DNA from: a virus
Length of the DNA stretch: 22,900 nt
Strand: one strand, 5' to 3'
Virus record (IMG/VR): IMGVR_UViG_3300032308_000138
Coordinates: 1 to 22,900 of that record
Under the pieces are notes generated by a model, which saw only the letters and a program-made list of their open reading frames with translations, was not told the origin of the DNA and ran no database searches. Made by a program: the position numbers and the translations under genes. The first letter of the stretch is position 1; each line of letters begins with the position of its first letter. This document shows positions 2,210 through 22,900 of the stretch, in pieces.

Positions 2210-4446
2210 TATAAGACGCTCCTGACTGTTACTAGGAGTAGACCACCGAATCCATCAAACTGACCGCTAGGTGGAGTCTTACGTGAGAAGTCAATGCGTT
2301 CAATGATTGCTTGGATACGCTCACCAGTGGTGAAGTCCTGCACGTTTACAATGTCGCCTACTGCTTCTACTTCTTCGAGAGTTTGAATACGCTCCCACGC
2401 ACGGCCTTCATATCCAGTTTGCACGTTGTATCTGTCTTTTTCGATATCGTAACACCAGACTGGAAACTGAATCAGTCTCTGGCGCTTAGTGGCAGGTAGT
2501 GCTTTTGCTTGGTATCCCTTAAATATAGGGCCTCTACTGGTATCGCTTGCGCTGCGTGAGAGCGTAAACTTGTACGATAGGAACTCTTGTGGGCCTTCTG
2601 GGTTAGTTGTAGCAGCCTCTGGCGTTCCAATGCTAGCGTTGTAAGTAATAATATTATAAGTGTTAGAAGTACTATCAATGGATTGAATATCCATAGCGCC
2701 GTACGAATAGTCTCCACGCGCGCGGATAAACTTATAGTTCTTAGGTTCTAGAGTTCCGTAACGGATAGCACCAGTAGTTACATATCCTGTAGAAACAAGA
2801 GTGCTTGCAGACTCTAAATAGATTGCTCCGTCAGTACCGTCATATGCACTAGCAAAGGCTAAACGGTTGGTAGTTCCGATAAAGGCAACAGCAGTAGTTT
2901 CGTGGGAACCACTTTGAGTTCCAATAATGTCATTAGCATAAGCAAAGCGAAGCGCCTCACCTTCAATAAGTTGACTCAAATCAATACGGGTAAGTCCTGC
3001 GTTAGTTCCTACTCCAGTAGTAGCCCATACGAAACGATCACGAGCAACAAAGTCATACACTGCTTGAGTTGTCTCTACGATTAGTGGGCCATAGGCAAGA
3101 GAGCCATCTTGATCGTTAATCTCAGCAACTCGCACACCTTTGCTAGTACCAATCATCATGTAGCCAAGATAGTAATATAGTTTTTCTACTATCTCTCCTG
3201 GCGGAAATTCAGCAGCAACAACAGCCTGTGTCAGCACCGGCATGGAGCCGTTAGTGCCTAGCGTGTACTTGTGAATAGTAGAATATATTCCAGAATGTCC
3301 AGCAGTATAAATAGCAGGGCCAGAAGCGGCTACGCTTGTGTGATGATAATTTGTGTTGGGATTGGTATAGATGGCGCTAGGCAGGCTTGTTGCATTAGTT
3401 GATAATTCATAGACTATGTTATTAACACAGAGCACAATACGGTCTTTAACGAACTCCATGGCTGCATATATAATTTCAATATCGCCACTCTGGAACATCT
3501 GGGTAACGTCACCTGTTGCAGATGGGTTAGATGAACCAGTAATTGAGTCACCTGATAGTGGCTTCTTAAACATAGTAAGGCGTTGATTACCGCCTGATGT
3601 CTTATTAGTTACCCAGTAAGCGTTGACTCCATCATCACAGATAGCGAATACTTTGCGGTCAGTTCCAGATATATAATCAATGTAATGAATTACTGGGTTA
3701 GTCACACCAGTTCCGACTGGGGATACTGCAGTAGAAGTTACCGTTCCGCTTGTTCCTGTTGTATAGGTAAATGTGGTTGTTGTAGGTACACCAGTAATAC
3801 GATACTCACCATTAAATGTAGCATCTACACCTGTAATTGTAATAGTCATACCAACTGTAAGTCCGTGTGCTACAGGAGTAGTAAGTGTTGCTACGTTAGT
3901 GGTGCGCGCCTTATTGCTAATTGATACTGTAATTGCTGGGTAAATTTTATCTACATCGAACTCATCGTGTAGCAATACACCGTTTACGCCAGACCATTGA
4001 ATTGAACGTGCGTGTTGTTGGGGATGTTGATGATCTGTGCCGACTACAGCACCAGTTGTTTGATGAGTATTGGTAGTTTCTCTGAGAAGTGATACCTGTC
4101 CTTTAGTCCAGACATCTACGCCTTGGGAGTCCTTGAAACGATATCCAACAGACTCACCAGCAGTAGGATCATAGAAGTTAATGCCAGATCCACCATGGAA
4201 TGATGATTGAGAACGAATCCACCAACCAGTAAGAGACTGCTCGCCAGGTTCGCGTGAGTTATCAAACTGTTCCTTGCGATAAGGTGCAGTTTCTCTTTGG
4301 TATGGATTAACATCTGTTGGTGCTAAGAAGAACGGTAGACCGCCAAAGGCTACGTCATAGTTATCTGCGTTATTAGTCCAGAAACCTGCAACACCAGGAT
4401 TACCAATGTTTAAGGGTAAATCTTCCGTGATATCGGGGGTAGCCAC
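2209..4446 (-). CDS. Large tail structural protein with an inserted Ig-like module, 745 aa
   Basis: The N-terminal part (residues about 65-115) has a GEQSLTGWWIRSQSSFHGG stretch that I associate with minor tail proteins of actinophages. Residues about 174-248 form a Thr/Val-rich module (NVATLTTPVAHGLTVGM, then FNGEYRITGVPTTTTFTY), a type that recurs as an insertion in many phage structural proteins. The middle (250-560) shows repeated short beta-strand blades such as YELS, IYTAGHSGIYS and MIGTSKGVRVAE, consistent with a beta-propeller-like fold. The C-terminus is beta-rich and ends VTVRSVL. The GTG start has an AAGGAG site five bases before it. It probably forms a tail hub, tip or appendage. 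The exact part cannot be fixed from sequence alone. Confidence 0.65.
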   Translation of the reverse strand: MATPDITEDLPLNIGNPGVAGFWTNNADNYDVAFGGLPFFLAPTDVNPYQRETAPYRKEQFDNSREPGEQSLTGWWIRSQSSFHGGSGINFYDPTAGESVGYRFKDSQGVDVWTKGQVSLLRETTNTHQTTGAVVGTDHQHPQQHARSIQWSGVNGVLLHDEFDVDKIYPAITVSISNKARTTNVATLTTPVAHGLTVGMTITITGVDATFNGEYRITGVPTTTTFTYTTGTSGTVTSTAVSPVGTGVTNPVIHYIDYISGTDRKVFAICDDGVNAYWVTNKTSGGNQRLTMFKKPLSGDSITGSSNPSATGDVTQMFQSGDIEIIYAAMEFVKDRIVLCVNNIVYELSTNATSLPSAIYTNPNTNYHHTSVAASGPAIYTAGHSGIYSTIHKYTLGTNGSMPVLTQAVVAAEFPPGEIVEKLYYYLGYMMIGTSKGVRVAEINDQDGSLAYGPLIVETTQAVYDFVARDRFVWATTGVGTNAGLTRIDLSQLIEGEALRFAYANDIIGTQSGSHETTAVAFIGTTNRLAFASAYDGTDGAIYLESASTLVSTGYVTTGAIRYGTLEPKNYKFIRARGDYSYGAMDIQSIDSTSNTYNIITYNASIGTPEAATTNPEGPQEFLSYKFTLSRSASDTSRGPIFKGYQAKALPATKRQRLIQFPVWCYDIEKDRYNVQTGYEGRAWERIQTLEEVEAVGDIVNVQDFTTGERIQAIIERIDFSRKTPPSGQFDGFGGLLLVTVRSVL

Positions 4447-8873: not shown

Positions 8874-10387
8874 TATAGTGCTCCCCAATCTGAGAGGTTA
8901 ACCCACGAAGCGGCAGTTCCGTTTGTGGTTAGGAAATATCCGTTATTTCCTGTTTGACTTGGTACTACATAGATACTTGAAGTGTCAAGAGATACTGTCA
9001 CAGCACCTGCTGTACCACCACCGCTTAACCCTGTTCCTGCTGTTACTGATTCAATATCTCCACTTGTTGCCATAACTGTCCAGGCAGAGCCTGTCCATAC
9101 AAACATACCAGGAGTAGTTGTATTAAAATAAAGTGCTCCAGTTAGCAGAGCATTACCGTCATTATCTACTGACGGGTTAGAAGCCTTAGGTCCAAGATAG
9201 CGGTCATCAAATGAATCAAGAGATGCTGCTGCTGCGGTTGCACTAGCCGCTGCTGCGGTTGCGCTATTTGCAGAGTTAGTTGCTTCAGTGCCAGCAGAAG
9301 TAGCACTATTAGCAGCAGCCGTTGCAGAGTTTGCTGCATTAGTTGCTTGCGTAGTTGCTGCACTTACCTGAGCATTTATGCCAATGTATGTATCAGTTGT
9401 TGTATCTGATTCTGTAATGCTGCCCATATCACGAACAAGACCTCTACCAGTTTGGTCTACAATTGCTGTGTAAGAGTTGCTTGCATTTGTTGCAGAACCT
9501 GCTGCTGCCGTAGCACTACTTGAGGCTGCTGACGCGCTAGAAGAGGCTGCAGAGGCTGATGAAGCAGCATTGGTAGCCTGTGTCGTAGCATTAGTTGCCT
9601 GTGTAGTAGCAGTGGTTGCTGAGTTAGATGCAGAAGTAGCAGATGTAGCAGCATTGCTTGCTGAAGTAGAAGCATTACTAGCCTGTGTTGATGCTGTAGA
9701 AGCAGAAGAAGTTGCTGATGAGGCTGATGATGTAGCCGAAGATGCGCTAGCAGTAGCACTGGTTGCGCTTGCAGCAGCCGCAGTTGCGCTACTTGCAGCG
9801 GCTGTAGCACTTGTAGATGCTGCTGTTGCTGAACCAAGAATACCATCTACATAAGTTTTATTGGTAGCGTCTCCACCTGCTGATGGAGTTGGAACGCTTG
9901 TAATAGCAGTACCAGACATTGTGCCACCAGTAATTGCTGGAGTTGAAATAGTAGGGGATGTACCAAATACTAATGAACCAGTACCTGTTTCATCTGAAAT
10001 AACACCACGAAGTTGAGCAGAAGTAGTTGCTCCATGTTGAGCAAGAGTTCCGTCAATGTGCGTGTTGGCTTCACGGAAGTCACGGCCGATAGCCATGTGG
10101 CGAACTTTAGCGCCAGCAGAGTGAGCAATCGCGGTTGTGCCATCTACGCCAGTACCACGAGTAATAGTAAGAGTGTTGCTTCCAGGTGCGCTAGGCGAAA
10201 TTACATCAACAATTTCTTCAAGTGCTGTATCTGGATCGATAACTACTGTGAAGGTTTCACCCGCTGCAGGAGTAATACCAGAGAGGAGACCAGACGCAGA
10301 ACTCACAACCATCGTGCTTGCGCCTGATGATAACGCTGAGGTAAGTGTAGTTTCCTGTGAAGTGGAGGAGTATTTTCTTATTGTCAT
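8873..10387 (-). CDS. Tail fibre protein with long Ser/Ala/Thr coiled-coil shaft, 504 aa
   Basis: Residues 13-96 form a beta module (LTSALSSGASTMVVSSASG, then EEIVDVIS, then TRGTGVDGTTAIAHSAGAKV). Residues 97-180 carry FREANTHIDGTLAQHGATT and the repeated phrases TISTPAITGGTMSG and GGDATNKTYVDG. Two runs of Ser/Ala/Thr/Asn heptad-like repeats follow (about 185-305 and 341-390), as in trimeric fibre shafts. The C-terminal part has DDRYLGPKASNPSVDNDGNA and GALYFNTTTPGMFVWTGSAW, a motif set frequent in T7-like and cyanophage fibres, and ends GYFLTTNGTAASWVNL. It probably forms the main side fibre. It overlaps both neighbours as TAATG. Confidence 0.85.
   Translation of the reverse strand: MTIRKYSSTSQETTLTSALSSGASTMVVSSASGLLSGITPAAGETFTVVIDPDTALEEIVDVISPSAPGSNTLTITRGTGVDGTTAIAHSAGAKVRHMAIGRDFREANTHIDGTLAQHGATTSAQLRGVISDETGTGSLVFGTSPTISTPAITGGTMSGTAITSVPTPSAGGDATNKTYVDGILGSATAASTSATAAASSATAAAASATSATASASSATSSASSATSSASTASTQASNASTSASNAATSATSASNSATTATTQATNATTQATNAASSASAASSSASAASSSATAAAGSATNASNSYTAIVDQTGRGLVRDMGSITESDTTTDTYIGINAQVSAATTQATNAANSATAAANSATSAGTEATNSANSATAAAASATAAAASLDSFDDRYLGPKASNPSVDNDGNALLTGALYFNTTTPGMFVWTGSAWTVMATSGDIESVTAGTGLSGGGTAGAVTVSLDTSSIYVVPSQTGNNGYFLTTNGTAASWVNLSDWGAL
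9205..9835 (-). repeat. Imperfect repeats encoding the Ser/Ala/Thr fibre shaft
   Basis: Degenerate short repeats built from GCT/GCA/AGC/ACT codons encode two runs of Ser/Ala/Thr/Asn in the 504-residue fibre, separated by a spacer (about 9365-9470, encoding IVDQTGRGLVRDMGSITES). The period is about seven residues. Low complexity makes expansion and contraction likely. Confidence 0.75.
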
Positions 10388-11292
10388 TAGTACCTCGTGT
10401 AGTGGATTCGGGTTGGATAAACGTCTTTAAGTTTGCCTGACTCTTCTTGTAGGCGTTGCTGGAATAGACCAAGCATAAAGCGAGCAGTAGATGCTCCTGA
10501 ACCGTATTGGATCTTTGTATCTGCGTTGTCTGCTTCTGCAGATGAATAGTTCAAACGGCCTGGGTCAATAAACGCGGCAAGGCGATAAGATGCACCATAA
10601 ACGATTACATCCTTACAAGATGAAGGCAGTCCCGTCACTGTTTCAAATACTGCATTAGATGCAGATGCTTCTAGAGTTGCTGGTTTCTTAGTGTAATAAA
10701 CTTGTACTTTACGACCTGCTTCCACAGCATCGTAGATTGATACTGTGTTACCAGTTGTAAAGGCTGTGGAGTTTGCCAATGGATCATGGCGCCAGTTTCT
10801 AACTGGTAGCCACTCTTTAGACGCACCACTAACACTGCGAGATATGTAAAGTATAGTTTCTACTTCTGCTGGTATCGCATAGGCTGATACTGCTGGATTA
10901 TAGTTAAACTCATAAGTACCAACAGCAAACAACTGAGGAAATACTGCATTGATGGTATCGTTGATAGCCTTCTTTACGGTTGCCTTGGGGAAGGTAGGGG
11001 CAACGGTAACTTTTGTATTTGCTGTATGAAGTGCTGCAGTAGTACCGTTATAGCCACGACCATAAGGCGCAGCAGTGGCAGTACTTGAAACACGGTCATA
11101 AGAGTCTAACCAGATGAGTTCGTCATCAATTTCAACAACACCCTTACCAATATTGGTAACGCTACCAAGATTAAGTGAGAGACCAGAGGATGTTATATCC
11201 TGTGTGAGGTGCGTAGTACGATCTTGTCGCAAAGTATAACCTGCTAGATTGAGAAGAATCTCATCTACCATATTGGCATAGGTTGTTGTCAT
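10387..11292 (-). CDS. Head-tail adaptor / tail tubular A-like protein, 301 aa
   Basis: The N-terminus (MTTTYANMVDEILLNLAGYT) is helical. Residues 25-98 are an inserted beta module with VVEIDDELIWL and GRGYNGTTAALHTANTKV. The rest has the pattern of a podoviral adaptor: helix KATVKKAINDTINAVFPQLF (103-122), YNPAVSAYAIPAEVETILYI, then VYYTKKPATL, SSCKDVIVYGASYRLA and a long C-terminal helix (FMLGLFQQRLQEESGKLK). Such proteins close the portal and connect head to tail. Assignment rests on this pattern and on position between head and fibre genes. Start: ATG at 11292 with AAAGGA eight bases before it. Its stop overlaps the fibre start as TAATG. Confidence 0.6.
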   Translation of the reverse strand: MTTTYANMVDEILLNLAGYTLRQDRTTHLTQDITSSGLSLNLGSVTNIGKGVVEIDDELIWLDSYDRVSSTATAAPYGRGYNGTTAALHTANTKVTVAPTFPKATVKKAINDTINAVFPQLFAVGTYEFNYNPAVSAYAIPAEVETILYISRSVSGASKEWLPVRNWRHDPLANSTAFTTGNTVSIYDAVEAGRKVQVYYTKKPATLEASASNAVFETVTGLPSSCKDVIVYGASYRLAAFIDPGRLNYSSAEADNADTKIQYGSGASTARFMLGLFQQRLQEESGKLKDVYPTRIHYTRY

Positions 11293-11314: not shown

Positions 11315-11773
11315 TTACTTAGAGTTTCCGTATCCACCAGACTTGCCACCAACGCGTGATGTAACAAATCTAACTACTGGGTTCTTCTTGAGGCTCTTAG
11401 TCTTTTGAACAGGAGTAGCCTTCTTTGTTGCAGATGTATAACGAACACCTGAACCAGTTGTATAAGTAGCCTTGCCTGACTTGGCGCTTCCTGGTGTGTA
11501 TCCGCCAGTGCCTGATGGCTTTGGCTTTCCAGCACCTAGACCACTAAAGCGTGAGTCTGTAGGCTTCTTAGGATTTGGCTTCTTAACTCCACTAAAACGT
11601 GAGTCAGTTGGCTTTGGAGCCGCAGCCTTCTTAGCAACAGCCTTCTTGGCTACTGCTTTCTTTGCTGAACCCTTTTTGTTAGCAAGACGTGAAGCATTCA
11701 TAGATGCCTGCATAATTGCACGGTCTGCTGCTGAGTATTCTGATAACTTATCTTTGTATTCTGGATTTCTCAT
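11315..11773 (-). CDS. Lysine-rich protein with duplicated motif and H1/HU-tail-like stretch, 152 aa
   Basis: Residues 1-34 are helical (MRNPEYKDKLSEYSAADRAI, then MNASRLANKK). Residues 35-53 read KGSAKKAVAKKAVAKKAAA, like the basic tails of histone H1 or actinobacterial HU proteins. The nonamer KPTDSRFSG follows twice (54-62 and 70-78), then a Gly/Ser/Thr/Lys-rich low-complexity part and the end VVRFVTSRVGGKSGGYGNSK. I see no cysteine. The ATG at 11773 is preferred because it starts one base after the previous stop. A GTG at 11809 with AAAGG before it would add 12 residues and overlap the previous gene. Function unknown; nucleic-acid binding or virion packaging is inferred from charge and position. 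Confidence 0.7.
   Translation of the reverse strand: MRNPEYKDKLSEYSAADRAIMQASMNASRLANKKGSAKKAVAKKAVAKKAAAPKPTDSRFSGVKKPNPKKPTDSRFSGLGAGKPKPSGTGGYTPGSAKSGKATYTTGSGVRYTSATKKATPVQKTKSLKKNPVVRFVTSRVGGKSGGYGNSK
11541..11614 (-). repeat. Direct repeat encoding a duplicated KPTDSRFSG motif
   Basis: Two 26-base copies, 11541-11566 and 11589-11614, differ at only a few positions (plus strand CCACTAAAGCGTGAGTCTGT versus CCACTAAAACGTGAGTCAGT at their starts) and begin 48 bases apart. They lie inside the lysine-rich 152-residue gene and encode the same nonamer twice, so an internal duplication is likely. Confidence 0.75.
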
Positions 11774-11774
11774 T

Positions 11775-12056
11775 TTACCATTTAACCTTGTCTGCCCAAT
11801 ATGCGGCACTCATTTTACCTTTGGATATATTACTTGCGTGACGTGCTTTGAAACTTTTACGTTTCATTTTCATTCTCTGGGATTCCCCAGCCTTTGGTTT
11901 GCCAGCAGTGCTTGCACCCTGCTCTCCAAATCGAATTGTCTTTACTTGAGTGCCTACCTTGGCAACCACCACATGTGACTTCTTTGGGTGGCTAGGAGTT
12001 CTCTTAGGCTTGTTATAGCCAGAGACTCCTGCTCGGGTTAGTCTTGAGTCTTTCAT
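11775..12056 (-). CDS. Small basic conserved phage protein, 93 aa
   Basis: The product starts MKDSRLTRAGVSGYNKPKRT and contains HPKKSHVVVAKVGTQVKTIR, FGEQGAS, and FKARHASNISKGKMSAAYWA at about residues 69-88, ending DKVKW. The combination RLTRAGVSGYNKPKRTP...RFGQQG...KARHAxNIxKGKMSAAYWAxK is recognisable as a short domain of unknown function found in cyanophages (I believe DUF6321; the number is from memory). The protein is strongly basic. Its start overlaps the stop of the previous gene by four bases (ATGA). It is one of six consecutive small Lys-rich genes between the capsid region and the adaptor. Confidence 0.75.
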   Translation of the reverse strand: MKDSRLTRAGVSGYNKPKRTPSHPKKSHVVVAKVGTQVKTIRFGEQGASTAGKPKAGESQRMKMKRKSFKARHASNISKGKMSAAYWADKVKW

Positions 12057-12289
12057 CTGTAACCTGCTGTTTTCTTTGCTATTGCTTTAGGTTGTTTAAC
12101 AAATTGCTTGCCTTTGGAATTCCCTTTGGCTTTCGCCTTGTTGGTAGCGGCTTTCTCTGCTGGACTTAATGCAGACCAAGCAGCAGCAGGTAGATATCTC
12201 TTCTTACCCTTTGACGGCTTGCCATCAGAAGTTTTCCACTTCTGTGCAGTCCACTTCTTGAGCGACTGCTGAGATTTAGCAAGTGCCAT
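12053..12289 (-). CDS. Small basic conserved phage protein with KGKQFV motif, 78 aa
   Basis: The product reads SQQSLKKWTAQKWKTSDGKP near the start, KKRYLPAAAWSALSPAEKAA in the middle (about residues 29-48), then TNKAKAKGNSKGKQFVKQPK. A SLkkWT...W-T-dGKpS...RYLP---w--Ls--E-aAt---K--g--kGKQFv pattern recurs in small basic proteins of phages and larger viruses (possibly the DUF5872 type; number from memory). The conserved Trp/Tyr residues suggest a small folded domain rather than pure low complexity. The start overlaps the previous stop as TAATG at 12289. The stop overlaps the next start as ATGA. Confidence 0.75.
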   Translation of the reverse strand: MALAKSQQSLKKWTAQKWKTSDGKPSKGKKRYLPAAAWSALSPAEKAATNKAKAKGNSKGKQFVKQPKAIAKKTAGYR

Positions 12290-12471
12290 TATTTGTAACC
12301 TCCGCCTGCTTTCTTATATTGCACAGCAAGTAGTTGTGCCTTACGTGCAGACCATTCTCCAGGGTCTCCACCCTTAGAGCCAGCCTTAATCTTCTTAAAT
12401 AAAGCAGCGCGCATGCCAGGCTTGGTATAATTACCAGCAGCATTAACCTTAGACTTTGCGGCCTTCTTCAT
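12289..12471 (-). CDS. Small basic conserved phage protein, 60 aa
   Basis: The 60-residue product has the core NYTKPGMRAALFKKIKAGSK (14-33) followed by GGDPGEWSARKAQLLAVQYK (34-53) and ends KAGGGYK. The pattern GNYTKPxMRxxLFxxIKAGxxGGxPGxWSARKAQxLAxxYKxxGGGYK is a recognisable small conserved family in phages, with no known function. Lys and Arg dominate. Both ends overlap neighbours as TAATG (12471 and 12289), so its translation is likely coupled to that of the adjacent small genes. Confidence 0.75.
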   Translation of the reverse strand: MKKAAKSKVNAAGNYTKPGMRAALFKKIKAGSKGGDPGEWSARKAQLLAVQYKKAGGGYK

Positions 12472-12686
12472 TATCTATTTCTGTTCTTTGCGTCAAATAC
12501 ACTTTTAGATGCAGCAACATATTGCTTGTAAGTTAGGTTGCCTGCTTTGTAAGCAGCAGATCCTTTATACTGAGCAATAGTCGGCGGTGTGAACTTAGGC
12601 ATTGGTGTTGCTTTTGCCTTAGGCGTTGCAGTAGCCTTAGCCTTAGGAGTAGTTTTTGGTTTAGGTGTAAGATAAGGATTAGGCAT
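12471..12686 (-). CDS. Small Lys/Pro-rich protein, 71 aa
   Basis: The first half is a low-complexity Pro/Lys/Thr/Ala stretch with a repeated PKAKAT unit (MPNPYLTPKPKTTPKAKATA, then TPKAKATPMPKFTPP). The second half looks folded, with IAQYKGSAAYKAGNLTYKQY (about 37-56) and a final basic tail NRNR. No family is recognised. It starts two bases after the stop of the preceding basic gene and ends in a TAATG overlap with the next one. The composition suggests interaction with nucleic acid or with an acidic protein surface, which is an inference. Confidence 0.65.
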   Translation of the reverse strand: MPNPYLTPKPKTTPKAKATATPKAKATPMPKFTPPTIAQYKGSAAYKAGNLTYKQYVAASKSVFDAKNRNR

Positions 12687-12688
12687 AA

Positions 12689-12850
12689 TTACATACCGCC
12701 GAATAGTCCGCGCTTAGGCGCAGCCTTCTTCATGGTTTTCTTCTTAGCAGTTTTCTTAACCATCTTCTTACCAGTCTTTTTGGCTTCTGCCTTTGCCATA
12801 GCCATGCCTTTTGCTGTATAAGCAAATTTTTTCATTCCCACTTTTGGCAT
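12689..12850 (-). CDS. Very lysine-rich small protein, 53 aa
   Basis: Translation of the minus strand from the ATG at 12850 gives a 53-residue product that opens MPKVGMKKFAYTAKGMAMAK and closes APKRGLFGGM. By my count 17 of 53 residues are lysine, concentrated in residues 20-46 (KKTGKKMVKKTAKKKTMKK). Small phage proteins opening MPKVGxKKFxYTxKG are familiar as unassigned late genes. The start overlaps the stop of the zinc-ribbon gene as TAATG, and the stop lies two bases before the next start. It is the first of six consecutive basic genes. Confidence 0.75.
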   Translation of the reverse strand: MPKVGMKKFAYTAKGMAMAKAEAKKTGKKMVKKTAKKKTMKKAAPKRGLFGGM

Positions 12851-13603: not shown

Positions 13604-14791
13604 TTAGATACGAACTGATGATGCAGTCTCGATGCGGTATAGCGCTTCTTGACGGAAGATAGACCAGTTGATGATACCGTGCCAGCCGACTGGGCGGAAA
13701 CGGTTCAACTTGTCTACAACGTTACCAAACTCGATGCCTGGTTCCTTCCATACTGCTTCAGCAAGTGCTTGCTGTCCTAGTACGTAAGTGTTGTAAACGC
13801 GTGCCTTTGGAGTAACTGTAAGTGTGTTTGTTCCAACAGTTCCTGAGTTAGCAACAGACACTGTGAATGTAGTGTTTGTAGCGCCAACTGAGATTGCTGT
13901 AATCAAAGCACCAGTACCTACGTTAGTACCAGAGATTGCATCTCCGACCTCAGCGAGACCACCGAATGCAGCATTTGCTGCAACGATTGTGAACTCACCT
14001 GAGGCGCCGCTTACTGCAGAAGCAGTAGCAAGTGCTGTTAGAGCCTTACCTGAGATAGTGTTGGTCATGCGTGGTGTCTCGATGAAACGGACACCTTCCC
14101 ATGCGCCGAGTTCTCCAGCAAGGAGTGGGCCGACGTTCTGGTACTCATGTGGTGTACGCCAGATGTTGTTTCCTGTCTCTGTGCGGAGATCGTGTGAAAC
14201 TTCTGGGTGGATGTATGAAACATACATTCCGCCACGAGGAACAACATTTCCAGCGCGCAACTTTGTTACTGCGTAACGTACGTCGCGTCCCTTGAATGTG
14301 TCTGTTGTATCGATTGTTGACTTTGCTGCAGTTGTAGAAAGCGCTCCGCCAGATTCACGGATTACGTTTGTACCTGCATCTAGAACAGCGGCGATACCGT
14401 TGTCTAGTGTTGTTGCCATGTTGAATGCAACTGCGTTAGCGATCCATGGATCAACATCTGAAAGTGACATAAGAGCCAACTTACGTGTTGGGAGTACTAC
14501 GCGACCTAGTTCTGTCTGTGAGACATCTAGGGTTGTAGTTGCTGGCATTGCTACTGCATCTGGATCTACAGTTTCAGCGAGTGTTGCACCTGCGATTGAG
14601 GTGTCAGCAATATCGTTGTAGAACTGGAATCGGATTGAAGAACCATCGTGGGTTGGGTTTCCGACCTTCTTGTCCGCGATAGCGCGGAACTGTGGCGTTG
14701 AACGCAAGTTCATTTCAATTAACTTGTCGTACGCCATAGTTACAAGATTGGAACCTAAACCAGTGGTCGAGGTTGAAAAGACATCTGCCAT
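13604..14791 (-). CDS. Major capsid protein, N4-gp56 family, 395 aa
   Basis: The protein shows the N4-gp56 layout: an N-terminal helix (YDKLIEMNLRSTPQFRAIAD), HDGSSIRFQFYNDIADTSIA (48-67), LAETVDPDA (71-79), TLDVSQTELGRVVLPTRKLA (87-106), NMATTLDNGIAAVL, then GGMYVSYIHPEVSHDLRTET (187-206), WRTPHEYQ and LGAWEGVRFIETPRM. These proteins take the HK97 fold and form the icosahedral shell. Residues about 243-328 (VSGASGEFTIVAANAAFGGL, VGDAISGTNVGTGALITAIS) look like a separate beta module inserted before YNTYVLGQQALAEAV. The scaffold gene lies directly upstream and AAAGGAG precedes the ATG. I see no cysteine. Confidence 0.88.
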   Translation of the reverse strand: MADVFSTSTTGLGSNLVTMAYDKLIEMNLRSTPQFRAIADKKVGNPTHDGSSIRFQFYNDIADTSIAGATLAETVDPDAVAMPATTTLDVSQTELGRVVLPTRKLALMSLSDVDPWIANAVAFNMATTLDNGIAAVLDAGTNVIRESGGALSTTAAKSTIDTTDTFKGRDVRYAVTKLRAGNVVPRGGMYVSYIHPEVSHDLRTETGNNIWRTPHEYQNVGPLLAGELGAWEGVRFIETPRMTNTISGKALTALATASAVSGASGEFTIVAANAAFGGLAEVGDAISGTNVGTGALITAISVGATNTTFTVSVANSGTVGTNTLTVTPKARVYNTYVLGQQALAEAVWKEPGIEFGNVVDKLNRFRPVGWHGIINWSIFRQEALYRIETASSVRI

Positions 14792-14823: not shown

Positions 14824-15306
14824 TTATTGACCGCTTAGGATGGATAAAATCTCATCTTCTGAATTTGCATTCGCAATGCGATTTGCAAGGTCATCTGATG
14901 CGCCAGGCGCTTCTGCTCCAGTTAATGCGTTATTCATTCTTTGCATGCTTTGGATATCTTGCTGGCTAACAGCCTGCTTTTCTTCGGCTTTAATTCCGAA
15001 TACGTCAGCATAGTTATCAAGCCATGCAGCGATTGCTTCTTCCGAAGCATCGATATCGTTTGGAATGAATGAAGCGATCTTTGGATTCACGCCTTTGGAT
15101 GCAAAAGCATCCTTGATAATCCGCTCACGCTGGGCCTTGCTGAGTTCTCCGAGACTGCCTTCTAGTTCCTTGTTACGCTTCTGTGCCTGCTTGAGGTCTT
15201 TGCGTAGTTTCCGAACCAAGTCAGTATCTGATTCAAACGATGGCGTAAAGTCATCATCTTCATCTTCGTCAGTTTCCCAGTTGATGTTGTCGCGGTTGTT
15301 GCTCAT
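14824..15306 (-). CDS. Capsid scaffolding protein, 160 aa
   Basis: The protein has a very acidic N-terminus (NWETDEDEDDDFTPSFESDT, residues 9-28), then a long charged helix with coiled-coil character (LVRKLRKDLKQAQKRNKELE, 30-49), a middle helical part, a Gln/Met-rich helix and a C-terminal helix ending EDEILSILSGQ. Acid-rich head, coiled coil and position immediately before the capsid gene are typical of phage scaffolds, which guide procapsid assembly and leave before DNA packaging. GGGAGAGG precedes the ATG. The gene follows the largest non-coding gap of the window. I see no cysteine and no protease motif. Confidence 0.8.
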   Translation of the reverse strand: MSNNRDNINWETDEDEDDDFTPSFESDTDLVRKLRKDLKQAQKRNKELEGSLGELSKAQRERIIKDAFASKGVNPKIASFIPNDIDASEEAIAAWLDNYADVFGIKAEEKQAVSQQDIQSMQRMNNALTGAEAPGASDDLANRIANANSEDEILSILSGQ

Positions 15307-17985: not shown

Positions 17986-20900
17986 TTAGTCCTCCAGTTG
18001 TCCTGCGAATACGCCGTAGTACATACGACTAAATGATTGATTTCGTAGCATTAGTTCCTCTGCTAAAGATCGCAATTCGTTACGCATCAAAGTAGCAAGA
18101 CCACCCTTTGAGGTGAGTTCTGCATAGTTAGATACCTTTGCCTTATTAAGAATGTCCTGGAATTCGCTATACTTTGAGTAGAACTCAGAAGTTTCCTTAT
18201 ATACTGGAGACTGTCTAAACGCTGGATCTTCTAGTGCGTTCTTAACAGAAGCGATCTTTTCATTTACAGCACCTGTTGTGATAGTAGACGCTGGTTTAGA
18301 TCCACCAAAGGTTCTATCCAGTTTAGCAATCTGCTCTGTATACCAGATATCGCCATAGCCATTAGCAATCTGTTCATTGGCTATCTGACTCTTCATCATA
18401 GTGTAGACGCGAGACTCAGCCTCATTTGCCAACTCATTTGTTGATAATGCACGGCGAGCACCGCTACGCTTCTGCCAGTTGTAATACTTTAAAGAGTATT
18501 CCCCACCAGGGAAGAAGTATGGAATGATATCTCCAGGAGCCTTAGCATATTTAGCCACTGACTCTGGGTTGTTATTCAACCAAGTCCAAGCATCTTCTGT
18601 GCCTCTAACTCCTGGTGTAGTTCCACCAAGGGTAACAAGCAGGTTCTCGATGCCATAAGTATCAGCAAAGAGCGTTACAGACTTGCCATAATCACCAGGA
18701 TTATCGTCTGTAATTCTCTGCCAATGATCGTAAAGCATGGTCATTGTCATAAAGTTTAACTTGTTATCAGGGCTTTTAATCTTTGCAAGCACTTCATCTT
18801 GTGGAGTTGCTGCTGAGATGCTCTGGAATAGAGCACCAAAGAATCCAACTTCGCGTGATAGTGCTTCTGCATCCTTAAACAAGCGGTTTCTTTCAGCGTC
18901 GCTAGCCATTGGATTGTCTCCATAGTTGCCAGTTGAGGCAAGATATGCAGCCCAATCTTTTACTCCGCGCTGTACAGTTGCTTCATCACCCATACGATAT
19001 GCAATGGTCTTTTTGAGCCATGCAGGAAATACAAAGTCTCCTGCACTCTTTGGCGCACCAAATGGTGTAATAATGTCTCGCAAGATGTCGTTAACAGGGC
19101 CAAATGCTGTAGATTTACCTGTAGCAGCGAATAATCCTTGTGCTACTGGGCCAATACCAGGAAGTCCTGGATTAACTTGACCAAATGCTAAGTTAAGTGA
19201 TTGAACTGGAGAAGTCATCTGCAGTGCTTGACTAGCACCTTCAACTCCAGAAGTCATACTAGCCATAGCACCAAGTACTGTTCCTGCAAATGGTGTCTTA
19301 AACTTCTTAGGGCCATTAGGAGTATCTTGATAGAAGAAACCCTGTTCTGGATCATAAGTTACGCCACTAATATCGTAGAGAACGTTTGAGCCTTCTTTAT
19401 TCAAAGCATCGAATGCTTTAGCAAACTTAATTGCAGGCGTTGGGTTCTTAGATAGTTCAGCCCACTTGGTTAGCGTGTTGTAATGTGCCTGAGCAAACGG
19501 GAAGATTAGGCGTACAGCATTAGCAGTTTGATTCTGTCTACCTGCATCATAGAATAGGTTCTTAACATATTTGCTTGCTTCACGAGCAGACATATTATCA
19601 ATAGTTTTTAGACTTGTAGTTCCACCAACATAGGATGGGTTCTTTTTACGCTTTGCAATTTCTTTATCAATCTCACGAAGCACTGGACTTCTACGTCCAA
19701 ATACTTTCTTACCATTCTTGGTAATAGGAGAAAGTGACTTAATTGCGTTAGCACGGAACTGGATCAAATCTTCTGTTTTTAGAAGTGGCGCATATCCTGC
19801 TGCAAAGTCCCAATAAGCCATCTGGAACTCTGGGCCAAAGTTCAACTTAGACTCAGCATATGCGGCTAGTTCGAAAAACTTATCAACTAACTGTGTAACT
19901 GTCTTGTCCATCTGACCAAAGACAACTTCTTGATTTTTAACAAACACAGTAGATCCTGTTAGATCCTCTGGCTTAAACTCATCAGCCATCTTCTTAATAA
20001 AGTCTTTTTCAAGAACATTAAGTTCTGCAACAGTTTTACCACCTGTTGAGTATGGAGCCTTAATCTTAACTAACTTGTTACCGCGAGTTACGGTTATTTC
20101 TCCATCACGAATCAGGTCAAATATTAGGTTTGACTTAGGGCCAGTGCCGGCAACGGCGTTAATCTGGCTGATAACAGTATCTCCTTGGCTGCTATCGAAC
20201 AAGTGAATAAGAATATCGTCTATATTCAGGTTATCTTTAGCAATTCCAGGCCCTGCTTCAGAGATATCTTTTAGGTAAATCTGACGCAATCCAGGGTTAG
20301 TTGTGAATATACTAGCAGCAAAGTTTCTTAAAGGGTTGTCTTTATTATCGAAATCCTTGGCAAGACCTTCTAACCATGAGCGTTGCATCTCTGGCGATGA
20401 GTCTTTTAGTCTGATAATTGCAGACATGAACTTATCTGATACGAAGTTATTTACAGTGTAAGCCAGACCTTCTGAGAACTCTGGGTGGTCACTGCCAACA
20501 ACCTTAAATTGATTAAATATCTGAGAGCGTCTGTTAGAGCGAATATCTCCAGCAGAGTTAAGTCTATTCCACCAAGAACGGAAACCAACTGCAGCATCAC
20601 CTAGGTCTGCCTCAGCCTGCTGAGTCTTAAATGCATTACCAGATGCATCGTATTGAAACTTAGCATACTTAGACATGAACTTTGTAAATCCGTTACCTTC
20701 TGGATTTGCTACCACTGTAGAGATAAATCCAAGAGGATTGGTGAATAAACTGTTGTGACCAGATAGCATTTGACGCATTTGCATTTCTGCGATATTGCGT
20801 GTTACATAAGCAAAACGACCGACCAACTGTGCTGTACGCCAGAAATCACCGAACTCTTCAAGTAATACCTTACCAGCACGAGCCTTGCTTATTACAGCAT

Positions 20901-22900
20901 TGGCTTTGTAGTTTCCTACAGACTTATAGATTGCTCTGGTGTCTGGAAGGAATATAAAGTCTTGAACTGCTTGCCACTCCATGAGTGCTTTATCAATAGC
21001 AATCGATTGGCCATTGGTTACAGTGATGTGCGGAACAGAGTCAGTAACACTTTTATTTAGGCTATAAGCATTCTGAGTAGCGCGTTCTTTACCGCTTATT
21101 CGAGTAATCTTTTTAAGATCATCAATCAATTTAGCGTCTAGGGCTAGGTCTGTTCCAATAGCATCTACGATCTTATCTACGCCATTAACTACAGCAGCAC
21201 CACGTTCTTGATTAGTGGTAGCCTTAAATATGTCGCGTTGGATTTCAGCGATCAATGCTTCTTGACGGTTCTTTCCAAGTGCCTGCTTAATACCAGCAGA
21301 ACTTACCCAGTCAGCAACTCCATTGAGAAGTTCTGTTCCATTACCAAGGCTTAGTACCGAACCGCGAACATATTGACGTCCGAATACACGGTCAACCTTT
21401 TCTACAAATTTAACTACCTTTAGGTTTGCTGGATCTACCAGACGCGCCATTGGAGATGCTTGCAATTTCAAGCCAGTTGAGACCGCATCACGCACAGTGC
21501 GTGGATCCATAGTCTCACCACCGACGTGATTCAAAAGAACTCTTAGTACATCTTCTGTGTTATCAGCATTAGTCAAAGCCTGAGTTAGTTCAAGATCCAA
21601 CTTGCCACCAAATAGGTTGTGAACTCGTACAGGATCTGTTTCTTTAGCGACTACTTCTGCTACAACTTCAAAGCGCTTACCAAGTAGAAACTTGAGGTGC
21701 TTATCAAAATCTTTAGTTACGTTGCCAGAGAAGCCATCAACTAGACCTGCTTCTACGCGTAGCGCTTCGATACCAGCAGTCTTTTCAGCAACCTGTGCTT
21801 CAATGTTTAGAATCTTCTTTAGACCCTTGTAATCTGGATCATTAATAAGTTCTTTTAGGATCTCTGGATCGTTGTTAGCAGCCTGACGAAGTGAATAGAT
21901 ATAGTTAAGTCTGTCATCTAGATCGTTGCCTTTAAGTACTGCATCTTCAAGTTCATACTGACGACGAGCAATTACTTCTTCTTTACCCTTGATTGAGGAT
22001 AGAAGTTTAGCAAGATTAGGGCCAAGGTTAGTTGGGTCTGCAATTTCTGCTGCAGCAACGGCAATCTCTGCACCCTTTGCACCGATCTTTGAGTTATTGG
22101 TGATTACTACACCACCAGTTTCTCCATAGATGGAGCGAATGTTAGTGAATCCATCAACCTTCCAGATGCCTTCAATAGCCTTGCGAATTGCATACATCGC
22201 TTCTGGGTTCTTATATTTAGCAACCTGACCAATAAGTGATCCTAGTGACTCTGCTTGAACAAGTTCATCGCCAATGGCAAATAGTGTTCCATGGAAACCT
22301 TCTAGGTTTGCAGTTTGCTGATCTAACTTAGTGCTAAGTTCTTGGAATATCTGCATCTGGGTAGTATCGTCAGTCTTTTTAGATAGACCACGGATTGCAT
22401 CAATTAACTTAGCGCGCTTCTTCGCTTCTTCTGCAACCTGCTTAGGGGTTGCCTTGGCGAAGTTATCGGCTAAGTCAAGAAGATTAAACTTCTGATCGCC
22501 TCTAGCAGTGATTACATACTCAAACTGCTCCTGAGCACCTACAGATATTTTACCTGCTTCTGGTACTTCATCTAGGAATATGTTACCTCTAAAGAAACCA
22601 CCAGTGTTCTTTGACTCTGCAGCAAGTGTATCGATAGCGCGAGTTAGTTCACCGCTGCGTACCTTTTCATGTGTGCTAAACCAGTTAGCCACTGCAGGAA
22701 CAGATAAAGTTTGACTTGCAATATCATCAGCAACCGCATCGCCACCTGGGAACATAATGGTTTGCTCTGTATTAAGCAATTCTTTTACTGTGCTTACAAG
22801 AGTCTTGTTAGACTTCTTTTCTAACTCAGCAATTTCCATGGCTGTTTTATGAAGGCTGGTATCAATTCGCTTGTATTGCTTAGCGGCTTCTTTCTTACCA
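17986..22900 (-). CDS. Giant virion-associated protein, at least 1637 aa, 5' end outside the window
   Basis: The first ATG in this frame is at 22839, but codons upstream stay open to the window edge (KKEAAKQYKRIDTSLHKTAM), so the true start is outside. The visible product is mainly helical and charged. Numbered from that Met, notable parts are a coiled N-terminal half with many E/K helices, an aromatic-rich region near 730-830 (FRTAQ, VGFRSWWNRLN), and about 1100-1125 the phrase NAVRLIFPFAQAHYNTLTKW, reminiscent of domains in large phage polyvalent proteins. Gly/Pro-rich hydrophobic segments follow (GLPGIGPVAQGLFAATG). The C-terminus is helical, ending YGVFAGQLED. No cysteine, protease, lysozyme or polymerase motif is seen. 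Candidate DNA-ejection or internal virion protein, by size, composition and place upstream of scaffold and capsid. Confidence 0.6.
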   Translation of the reverse strand, partial: GKKEAAKQYKRIDTSLHKTAMEIAELEKKSNKTLVSTVKELLNTEQTIMFPGGDAVADDIASQTLSVPAVANWFSTHEKVRSGELTRAIDTLAAESKNTGGFFRGNIFLDEVPEAGKISVGAQEQFEYVITARGDQKFNLLDLADNFAKATPKQVAEEAKKRAKLIDAIRGLSKKTDDTTQMQIFQELSTKLDQQTANLEGFHGTLFAIGDELVQAESLGSLIGQVAKYKNPEAMYAIRKAIEGIWKVDGFTNIRSIYGETGGVVITNNSKIGAKGAEIAVAAAEIADPTNLGPNLAKLLSSIKGKEEVIARRQYELEDAVLKGNDLDDRLNYIYSLRQAANNDPEILKELINDPDYKGLKKILNIEAQVAEKTAGIEALRVEAGLVDGFSGNVTKDFDKHLKFLLGKRFEVVAEVVAKETDPVRVHNLFGGKLDLELTQALTNADNTEDVLRVLLNHVGGETMDPRTVRDAVSTGLKLQASPMARLVDPANLKVVKFVEKVDRVFGRQYVRGSVLSLGNGTELLNGVADWVSSAGIKQALGKNRQEALIAEIQRDIFKATTNQERGAAVVNGVDKIVDAIGTDLALDAKLIDDLKKITRISGKERATQNAYSLNKSVTDSVPHITVTNGQSIAIDKALMEWQAVQDFIFLPDTRAIYKSVGNYKANAVISKARAGKVLLEEFGDFWRTAQLVGRFAYVTRNIAEMQMRQMLSGHNSLFTNPLGFISTVVANPEGNGFTKFMSKYAKFQYDASGNAFKTQQAEADLGDAAVGFRSWWNRLNSAGDIRSNRRSQIFNQFKVVGSDHPEFSEGLAYTVNNFVSDKFMSAIIRLKDSSPEMQRSWLEGLAKDFDNKDNPLRNFAASIFTTNPGLRQIYLKDISEAGPGIAKDNLNIDDILIHLFDSSQGDTVISQINAVAGTGPKSNLIFDLIRDGEITVTRGNKLVKIKAPYSTGGKTVAELNVLEKDFIKKMADEFKPEDLTGSTVFVKNQEVVFGQMDKTVTQLVDKFFELAAYAESKLNFGPEFQMAYWDFAAGYAPLLKTEDLIQFRANAIKSLSPITKNGKKVFGRRSPVLREIDKEIAKRKKNPSYVGGTTSLKTIDNMSAREASKYVKNLFYDAGRQNQTANAVRLIFPFAQAHYNTLTKWAELSKNPTPAIKFAKAFDALNKEGSNVLYDISGVTYDPEQGFFYQDTPNGPKKFKTPFAGTVLGAMASMTSGVEGASQALQMTSPVQSLNLAFGQVNPGLPGIGPVAQGLFAATGKSTAFGPVNDILRDIITPFGAPKSAGDFVFPAWLKKTIAYRMGDEATVQRGVKDWAAYLASTGNYGDNPMASDAERNRLFKDAEALSREVGFFGALFQSISAATPQDEVLAKIKSPDNKLNFMTMTMLYDHWQRITDDNPGDYGKSVTLFADTYGIENLLVTLGGTTPGVRGTEDAWTWLNNNPESVAKYAKAPGDIIPYFFPGGEYSLKYYNWQKRSGARRALSTNELANEAESRVYTMMKSQIANEQIANGYGDIWYTEQIAKLDRTFGGSKPASTITTGAVNEKIASVKNALEDPAFRQSPVYKETSEFYSKYSEFQDILNKAKVSNYAELTSKGGLATLMRNELRSLAEELMLRNQSFSRMYYGVFAGQLED

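Follow-up and report, generated by a model that had tools for sequence, protein, structure and literature searches.

Does a lysine-rich phage protein with a histone-like stretch carry a copy of the DNA-compacting tail of a host nucleoid protein, or is it part of something larger? The question arises from an ORF, here called P1, in the window (the whole stretch of DNA analyzed, 22,900 nucleotides, positions 1 to 22,900 of IMG/VR virus record IMGVR_UViG_3300032308_000138). A sequence-only reading had described an AKKAVAKKA stretch in a phage late protein and had proposed that it could help condense phage DNA or compete with host chromatin. The label "late" is one we infer from the position of P1 between the major capsid and SU10-type adaptor genes.

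P1 and its lysine- and alanine-rich stretch

11315..11773, minus strand: P1, the lysine-rich protein; ATG start, 152 aa, predicted pI 10.7, net charge +29; laid out as an N-terminal helix, a K/A stretch, two DSRFSG motifs, and a basic C-terminal part
11618..11674, minus strand: KGSAKKAVAKKAVAKKAAA, three AVAKK-type pentads, P1 residues 34-52
11588..11614, minus strand: KPTDSRFSG copy 1, P1 residues 54-62
11540..11566, minus strand: KPTDSRFSG copy 2, P1 residues 70-78

Both features on which the proposal had been built were found in P1, with KGSAKKAVAKKAVAKKAAA at residues 34-52 rather than at 35-53 and the KPTDSRFSG duplication as exactly two copies. Three AKKA motifs at residues 34-52 give the stretch the pattern of a K/A-rich PAKK/AKKA tail at an internal rather than a terminal position. 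Identity at period 5 extends over 11 of 14 positions, which none of 20,000 shuffles of the protein reached, and the K+A count of 15 in 19 residues was reached by 7 of 20,000 shuffles; the periodicity is not due to chance. Since the pentad copies (GCA AAG AAA GCA GTA / GCC AAG AAG GCT GTT / GCT AAG AAG GCT GCG) differ at synonymous sites, they do not seem to be a fresh product of DNA slippage. An AlphaFold model of P1, computed from a six-sequence alignment that included the window, predicted helix at residues 9-12 and 15-33 and coil elsewhere (mean pLDDT 54.3), which, at this shallow alignment depth and low confidence, fits a disordered polycation. P1 had no significant match to a known family in Pfam, PHROGs, PDB sequences, or phage records, the last comprising 50,697 records searched at E<=0.01.

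Relatives of P1 were detected in viral contigs, five loci by a single query and 11 by an alignment. Five of these 11 are the earlier contigs, and L222/L223 and L224/L225 are pairs with identical P1 proteins; L216, L217, L218, and L221 are repeat retrievals of the L002, L003, L004, and L005 contigs. The family contains two N-terminal types, one to four DSRF motifs, and several C termini, with a net charge of +22 to +38 across all relatives read. All six aligned P1 sequences (window included) contain DSRF[ST]G, and a scan of 169 sequences detected it in none of their other ORFs (>=35 aa, oriented strand). The number of AKKAV units is three in the window and five in L004; L003 has a shorter array and L002 an interrupted one, and L005, L006, L219, L220, and L222-L225 lack it as an array, usually with other K/A/P-rich linkers rather than neutral residues in its place. 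The sequence-only reading had taken loss of the stretch, or its replacement by neutral residues, in close relatives to count against it; of the two, we observed the loss, by interruption in L002 and by absence of the array from distant relatives, and not, as a rule, the replacement. The AKKAV stretch is thus not conserved, and what persists is DSRF, in one to four copies, and a strong positive charge. In L003 (562-4866), the P1 relative lies between genes reading as terminase and portal, and in the window P1 adjoins the adaptor gene.

A block of six basic genes and its relatives in other phages

10387-11292: SU10-type adaptor gene (PF24175)
11775..12056, minus strand: P2, 93 aa, net charge +20; PHROG 7595 (unknown function), E 1.5e-41; 47 phage records
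12053..12289, minus strand: P3, 78 aa, +19; PHROG 14910 (unknown function), E 6.8e-38; 15 phage records
12289..12471, minus strand: P4, 60 aa, +13; PHROG 17747 (unknown function), E 1.5e-33; 17 phage records
12471..12686, minus strand: P5, 71 aa, +13, K/P/T-rich; no significant family match
12689..12850, minus strand: KME, 53 aa, with a conserved MPKVGMKKFAYTAKGM head and a KKMVKKTAKKKTMKKAAP tail; 310 relatives among viral contigs
13604-14791: major capsid gene (PHROG 1357, PF13252)

Six lysine-rich ORFs follow one another on the minus strand (11315-12850) in the order KME, P5, P4, P3, P2, P1, and the block sits between the adaptor gene and the major capsid gene, with two further ORFs on the capsid side. 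Its ORFs are joined by overlaps of 1-4 bases or gaps of 1-2 bases. Lysine makes up 17-24% of five of these proteins, which have net charges of +13 to +29, and the sixth (KME) reads equally lysine-rich. P1 evolves faster than its neighbors, with dN/dS of 0.56 against L002 and 0.52 against L004, compared with 0-0.31 in both comparisons for the capsid, adaptor, two small ORFs, P2, P3, P4, and KME, suggesting that P1 may be weakly constrained; for P5, the value against L002 was 0.18, and the L004 copy is too diverged.

The PHROG profiles cover P2, P3, and P4 over nearly their full length, and these proteins show strong residue conservation with invariant W, Y, G, and R positions, which argues against pure charge neutralization as their role. 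The second PHROG match of P2 is annotated as "minor head protein and DNA pilot" (E 1.5e-4), and a relative of KME in L002 matched PHROG 33179 (E 7.1e-10). The P2 model predicts a helix, a beta hairpin, and further helices (pLDDT 63.6) and found no PDB fold match at E<=0.001, nor did P2-P4 have any significant solved or fold relative. Because model confidence is low for P1 and moderate for P2, we make no claim about either fold.

Several observations concern the surroundings of the block. An acidic ORF at 14824-15306 was considered as a putative scaffold gene. The protein encoded at 17986-22839 (1617 aa) had no PHROG or Pfam match at E<=1, and Streptomyces phage Stella has a similarly sized gene on the corresponding side of its capsid gene. 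The capsid proteins of the window (13604-14791), L005 (2889-4085), and L006 (233-1429) are ~56% identical overall and share a near-identical stretch at about residues 250-328 (SAVSG.SGEFTIVAANAAFGG...TLTVTP), which looks as if an inserted domain had been swapped by recombination.

One or more of P2-P4 occur in phages of Synechococcus, Prochlorococcus, Roseobacter, Celeribacter, Lentibacter, Puniceispirillum, Vibrio, Pelagibacter, and Methylophilales, so named among the 47 (P2), 15 (P3), and 17 (P4) of 50,697 phage records that matched, with hosts in the Cyanobacteria and Proteobacteria and best identities of 76-80%. Members of this set, which we call the kit, are present in the isolated phages HMO-2011, the Roseobacter CRP phages, and MEP401. 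Of the 43 phage records that the window capsid protein matched, 29 have Streptomyces in their names and none has a host of the kit-bearing phages, indicating that the same kit accompanies different capsid proteins. In Roseobacter phage SIO1 (AF189021.1 / NC_002519.1), a P2 relative at 24065-24277 has no annotated feature over the region and looks like a missed small gene.

Co-occurrence was assessed in viral contigs taken, for P2 and P4, from among the matches listed (80 loci fetched through P2 and 77 further loci fetched through P4), and some contigs recur between the P2-, P4-, and KME-fetched sets. Among the 80 P2-fetched loci, P3 was found in at least 43 and P4 in at least 42, both lower bounds because the ORF finder and profile recovered P2 itself in 73 of the 80. 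The 77 P4-fetched loci contained P3 in 75, P2 in 33, KME in 34, and DUF6321 in 32, and the 80 KME-fetched loci contained P2 in 70, P3 in 36, and P4 in 37. P4 and P3 were found together in 123 of 169 sequences, most of the 169 having been fetched through P2 or P4; the two were separated by <=20 bases in 80 and by 21-1000 bases in 22, were fused in 14, and were otherwise arranged in 7. A single ORF (L060) combines P2 with P3, and P2 and P4 lie within 1.5 kb of each other in 72 of the 78 sequences where the profiles find both. In relatives, proteins with DUF6321 (PF19846) or DUF6496 (PF20106) fill slots of the same blocks; neither domain was found by Pfam among the ten window ORFs scanned, and a DUF6496 query from L175 had no match in phage records. 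These patterns indicate that P2, P3, P4, and KME form a recurrent set in metagenomic phages, for which any function is a proposal.

All 424 non-redundant entries of eight families from the 169 sequences (168 loci and the window) are net positive, at +7 to +41, in a count where fused ORFs enter each of their families and the families were found via similarity to basic seeds. A charge density of >=0.12 was observed for 99.6% of 457 kit ORFs and for 3.1% of 976 other mechanical ORFs of >=120 aa in the same loci. Under a strict rule, which requires three xKKx in 25 residues, even kit proteins seldom have K/A tails, these being found in 0/112 P2, 0/111 P3, 0/125 P4, 1/56 KME, and 6/3,633 other ORFs, and three of these last six adjoin kit genes (L107 3797-3949, L109 4272-4439, and L165 4373-4633). 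By a looser rule of two xKKx, 23 of 33 non-redundant KME proteins have tails, and K/A runs also occur in an HMO-2011 ORF. Searches of open-licence literature listed neither a description of such a kit nor an experiment on P1-P5 or KME, and DUF6321 and DUF6496 were not mentioned there among the matches listed.

Host, nucleoid-protein tails, and virions

The six confirmed relatives of the window capsid in genome contigs belong to five Streptomyces genomes and one Actinomycetota MAG, and an actinobacterial host is therefore likely by sequence relationship. P2 was found in 1 of 296 genomes of the phylum of that MAG, namely the MAG itself, and in none of 14 controls, and so looks phage-borne. The MAG holds the related phage contig L175, in which a 242-aa glycosyltransferase-like ORF (3547-4275) lies inside the basic-protein block.

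HU was detected in 48 of 59 genomes of one actinobacterial order (65 matches), the order of this MAG, which may not be that of the window phage's host. Among the best-scoring 30 of the 65 matches, tails were >=25 residues long in 10 and had at least three xKKx in 8, as with PAKKAAAKKAAPAKK in L200, and exact AKKAVAKKA was in none. The likeness to actinobacterial HU tails asserted by the sequence-only reading consequently holds for style and not for the exact nonamer. For histone H1, to which it also asserted a likeness, P1 had no hit above cut-off, with histone H1-like HC2 (PF07382) at 16.3 bits against a Pfam cut-off of 40 (E 0.011), and P1-P5 had no match at E<=1 to PF07432 (histone H1-like) or to PF00216, the HU/HupB fold domain. 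Phage Stella and the five Streptomyces-genome loci, all capsid relatives, had no kit or P1 match among capsid-strand ORFs within ~8 kb of the capsid gene. With P1 lacking an HU match, the array variable, K/A runs in HMO-2011, and the Streptomyces relatives kit-less near the capsid gene, the proposal that the phage copied the tail of a host nucleoid protein found no support.

Studies of mycobacterial proteins show what such repeats can do. The HupB tail with its PAKK/AKKA repeats is needed for DNA binding and nucleoid association (PMC5676037). HbhA is located on the nucleoid, forms loops and bends in DNA, and depends for DNA binding on its C-terminal domain with the AKKA repeats, and RplV of Mycobacterium tuberculosis, one of four AKKA-repeat proteins and itself with four AKKA repeats, gave no DNA shift (PMC10665949). 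Because HbhA needs its tail and RplV failed to shift DNA, AKKA repeats raise the chance of DNA binding without proving it. By analogy with HupB and HbhA, a DNA-condensing role of P1 is plausible, given its strongly basic character, the coil predicted after residue 33 in a low-confidence model, and its place in a basic run of the structural region.

Whether such proteins enter virions can be approached through DUF6321. A DUF6321 protein matched 501 phage records by tblastn, 454 of them named Synechococcus, Cyanophage, or Prochlorococcus. In Syn9, S-RSM4, S-CREM2, and S-SZBM1, the gene encoding the domain follows that of the terminase small subunit at a distance of two to four genes. S-CREM2 gp137, whose C-terminal domain is DUF6321 (PF19846, 40.8 bits), is listed in Table 3 of PMC10665884 as detected in CsCl-purified virions by 4 unique peptides, which cover 4.1% of the 490-aa protein and need not stem from the DUF6321 part; the authors warn of CsCl carry-over with regard to other proteins from the same preparation. 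The S-SZBM1 protein that contains the domain, SSZBM1_192, is absent from the 30 virion proteins in Table 1 of PMC9146016, an absence for which the use of trypsin has to be considered, as this protease cleaves lysine-rich proteins into fragments too small for detection. DUF6321 virion evidence therefore stands at one of two phages, found in S-CREM2 and not listed for S-SZBM1. In the published tables, nothing was found on virion presence of P1-P5 or KME; 41 virion proteins are reported for S-SM1 (Sullivan et al., PMC3037559), and the available text of PMC2984593, PMC9964418, and PMC9602691 contained no usable virion table.

Three further proteins were noted in these phages. S-SZBM1_195, a prominent small virion protein whose gene directly follows that of the terminase small subunit, reads as not basic, has no Pfam match, and was rejected as a candidate. 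SSZBM1_194 (L210 3253-5376), a 707-aa lysine-rich protein encoded two genes away from the terminase small subunit, has a C-terminal SAM-lyase family match (PF23780, 33 bits) and is absent from virion Table 1 (PMC9146016). Syn9 gp114 (L206 7903-9234) is a 444-aa lysine-rich protein with chain-like short Cys/Trp-containing pieces and DUF6321 at its end.

What the basic proteins may do

Within a run of six basic proteins, the histone-like stretch is just one variable part, and the recurrent kit around P1 is the more interesting object. The explanation we favor, to which as a whole we assign a probability of about one half, is that these proteins are late, probably virion-associated polycations that bind nucleic acid non-specifically. 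P1 would be a fast-evolving, mostly disordered polycation with an N-terminal helix, K/A-rich linkers, and one to four DSRF peptides, and P2, P3, P4, and KME, together with DUF6321 and DUF6496 elsewhere, would form an exchangeable kit of unrelated aquatic tailed phages. Kit proteins would be made late and would enter or coat the DNA-filled head, where their lysine-rich parts would neutralize and hold packaged DNA without sequence preference and their conserved elements (DSRF in P1 and, in P2-P4, the invariant W, Y, G, and R) may anchor them to a head protein or to one another. This explanation starts from the observed charge, gene order, co-occurrence, fusion, and presence in phages of different hosts, and would add lateness, virion location, DNA binding, anchoring, and exchange as the route of spread; the rarity of K/A tails in the kit under the strict rule counts against it. 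More tentatively, the kit and lineage-specific parts such as P1 might constitute a phage "virion nucleoid" of interacting DNA-condensing parts, swapped as genes or fused domains across capsid types, hosts, and several phyla.

The usual view of tailed phages is that their packaged DNA is almost bare of protein and that ions and polyamines balance its charge. If our favored explanation is true, the DNA of many common aquatic phages would be coated with a widespread, shared set of lysine-rich head proteins, and a function could at once be assigned to several common families that now lack one. Because kit members are present in isolated phages (HMO-2011, the Roseobacter CRP phages, and MEP401), the question is open to direct test.

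We regard it as quite improbable that P1 and its neighbors, entering or produced in the cell, instead coat or displace host chromatin, with the P1 tail copied from a HupB-type protein. The HU-tail style in 8 of the best 30 of 65 matches of an actinobacterial order and the likely actinobacterial host (five Streptomyces and one Actinomycetota MAG capsid relatives) would suit such a takeover. The exact 9-mer was in none of those 30 tails, however, the stretch varies among P1 relatives, the genes are located in a structural block, and the Streptomyces capsid relatives lack a kit or P1 match near the capsid gene; moreover, similar K/A runs occur in HMO-2011, whose host, Candidatus Puniceispirillum, is an alphaproteobacterium. 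That AKKA-repeat HbhA loops and bends DNA on the nucleoid also speaks for the takeover (PMC10665949). Unlikely as well, in our estimate, is that the basic proteins are assembly factors whose targets are capsid, neck, or terminase (for example, the acidic putative scaffold of 14824-15306) rather than DNA, and that they are absent from the virion or only minor parts of it. Gene positions favor this role, including the block between capsid and adaptor genes, the L003 P1 gene between those reading as terminase and portal, P4 and P3 directly before the terminase large-subunit gene in MEP401, and the DUF6321 gene two to four genes after the terminase small subunit, and SSZBM1_192 is not listed in virions (Table 1 of PMC9146016). 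These positions nevertheless vary between phages and therefore imply no single assembly partner, and the same kit accompanies different capsid proteins.

A most improbable alternative is that these are RNA- or ribosome-directed small proteins, like ribosomal proteins, acting on late translation. They are small and basic with invariant aromatic and glycine residues, RplV also carries AKKA repeats (PMC10665949), and three of the four PDB matches of the P2 profile are chloroplast ribosomal protein L24 (E 0.25-0.6; the fourth is a putative baseplate protein), with ribosomal L36 matched by P3 (E 0.39). None of these matches is significant, however, the P3 and P4 profiles find none of the kind, and no Pfam ribosomal domain was detected among the ORFs scanned. 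For the stretch alone, and compatibly with our favored explanation, AKKAV may be a near-neutral low-complexity linker that expands and contracts, with only DSRF and the P1 ends being important. We hold this to be possible yet doubtful, since three units in the window, five in L004, and no array in distant relatives, together with the high P1 dN/dS, would fit it, but the charge stays at +22 to +38 in every P1 relative read, substitutes are usually K/A/P-rich, and the pentads vary at synonymous sites yet keep their residues.

Several known systems can be set beside the polycations that we favor. PHROG 7595, 14910, and 17747 match P2, P3, and P4 at near full length, and the PHROG search does not present them as a set. 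DUF6321 (PF19846) and DUF6496 (PF20106) are strongly basic short domains found in the blocks of relatives only and not in the ten window ORFs scanned. The internal head proteins of phage T4 are small basic proteins packaged with DNA, as we propose for the kit, a parallel that we draw as a likeness and not as homology. The mycobacterial HupB (PMC5676037) and HbhA (PMC10665949) tails share AKKA/PAKK-type repeats and a plausible sequence-independent DNA binding with P1, whereas P1 has no HU domain and its stretch is internal, short, variable, and encoded in a block of phage structural genes. Four "moraphages," large aquatic phages, encode histone H1-like proteins (PF07432) for which the authors suggest genome compaction (PMC12619734), and that P1 helps condense phage DNA is a reasonable guess akin to theirs. 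Both are phage proteins of basic, H1-like composition, but a single H1-like protein is named for the moraphages (PMC12619734), whereas the window presents P1, which has no PF07432 match, as one member of a basic block of six ORFs.
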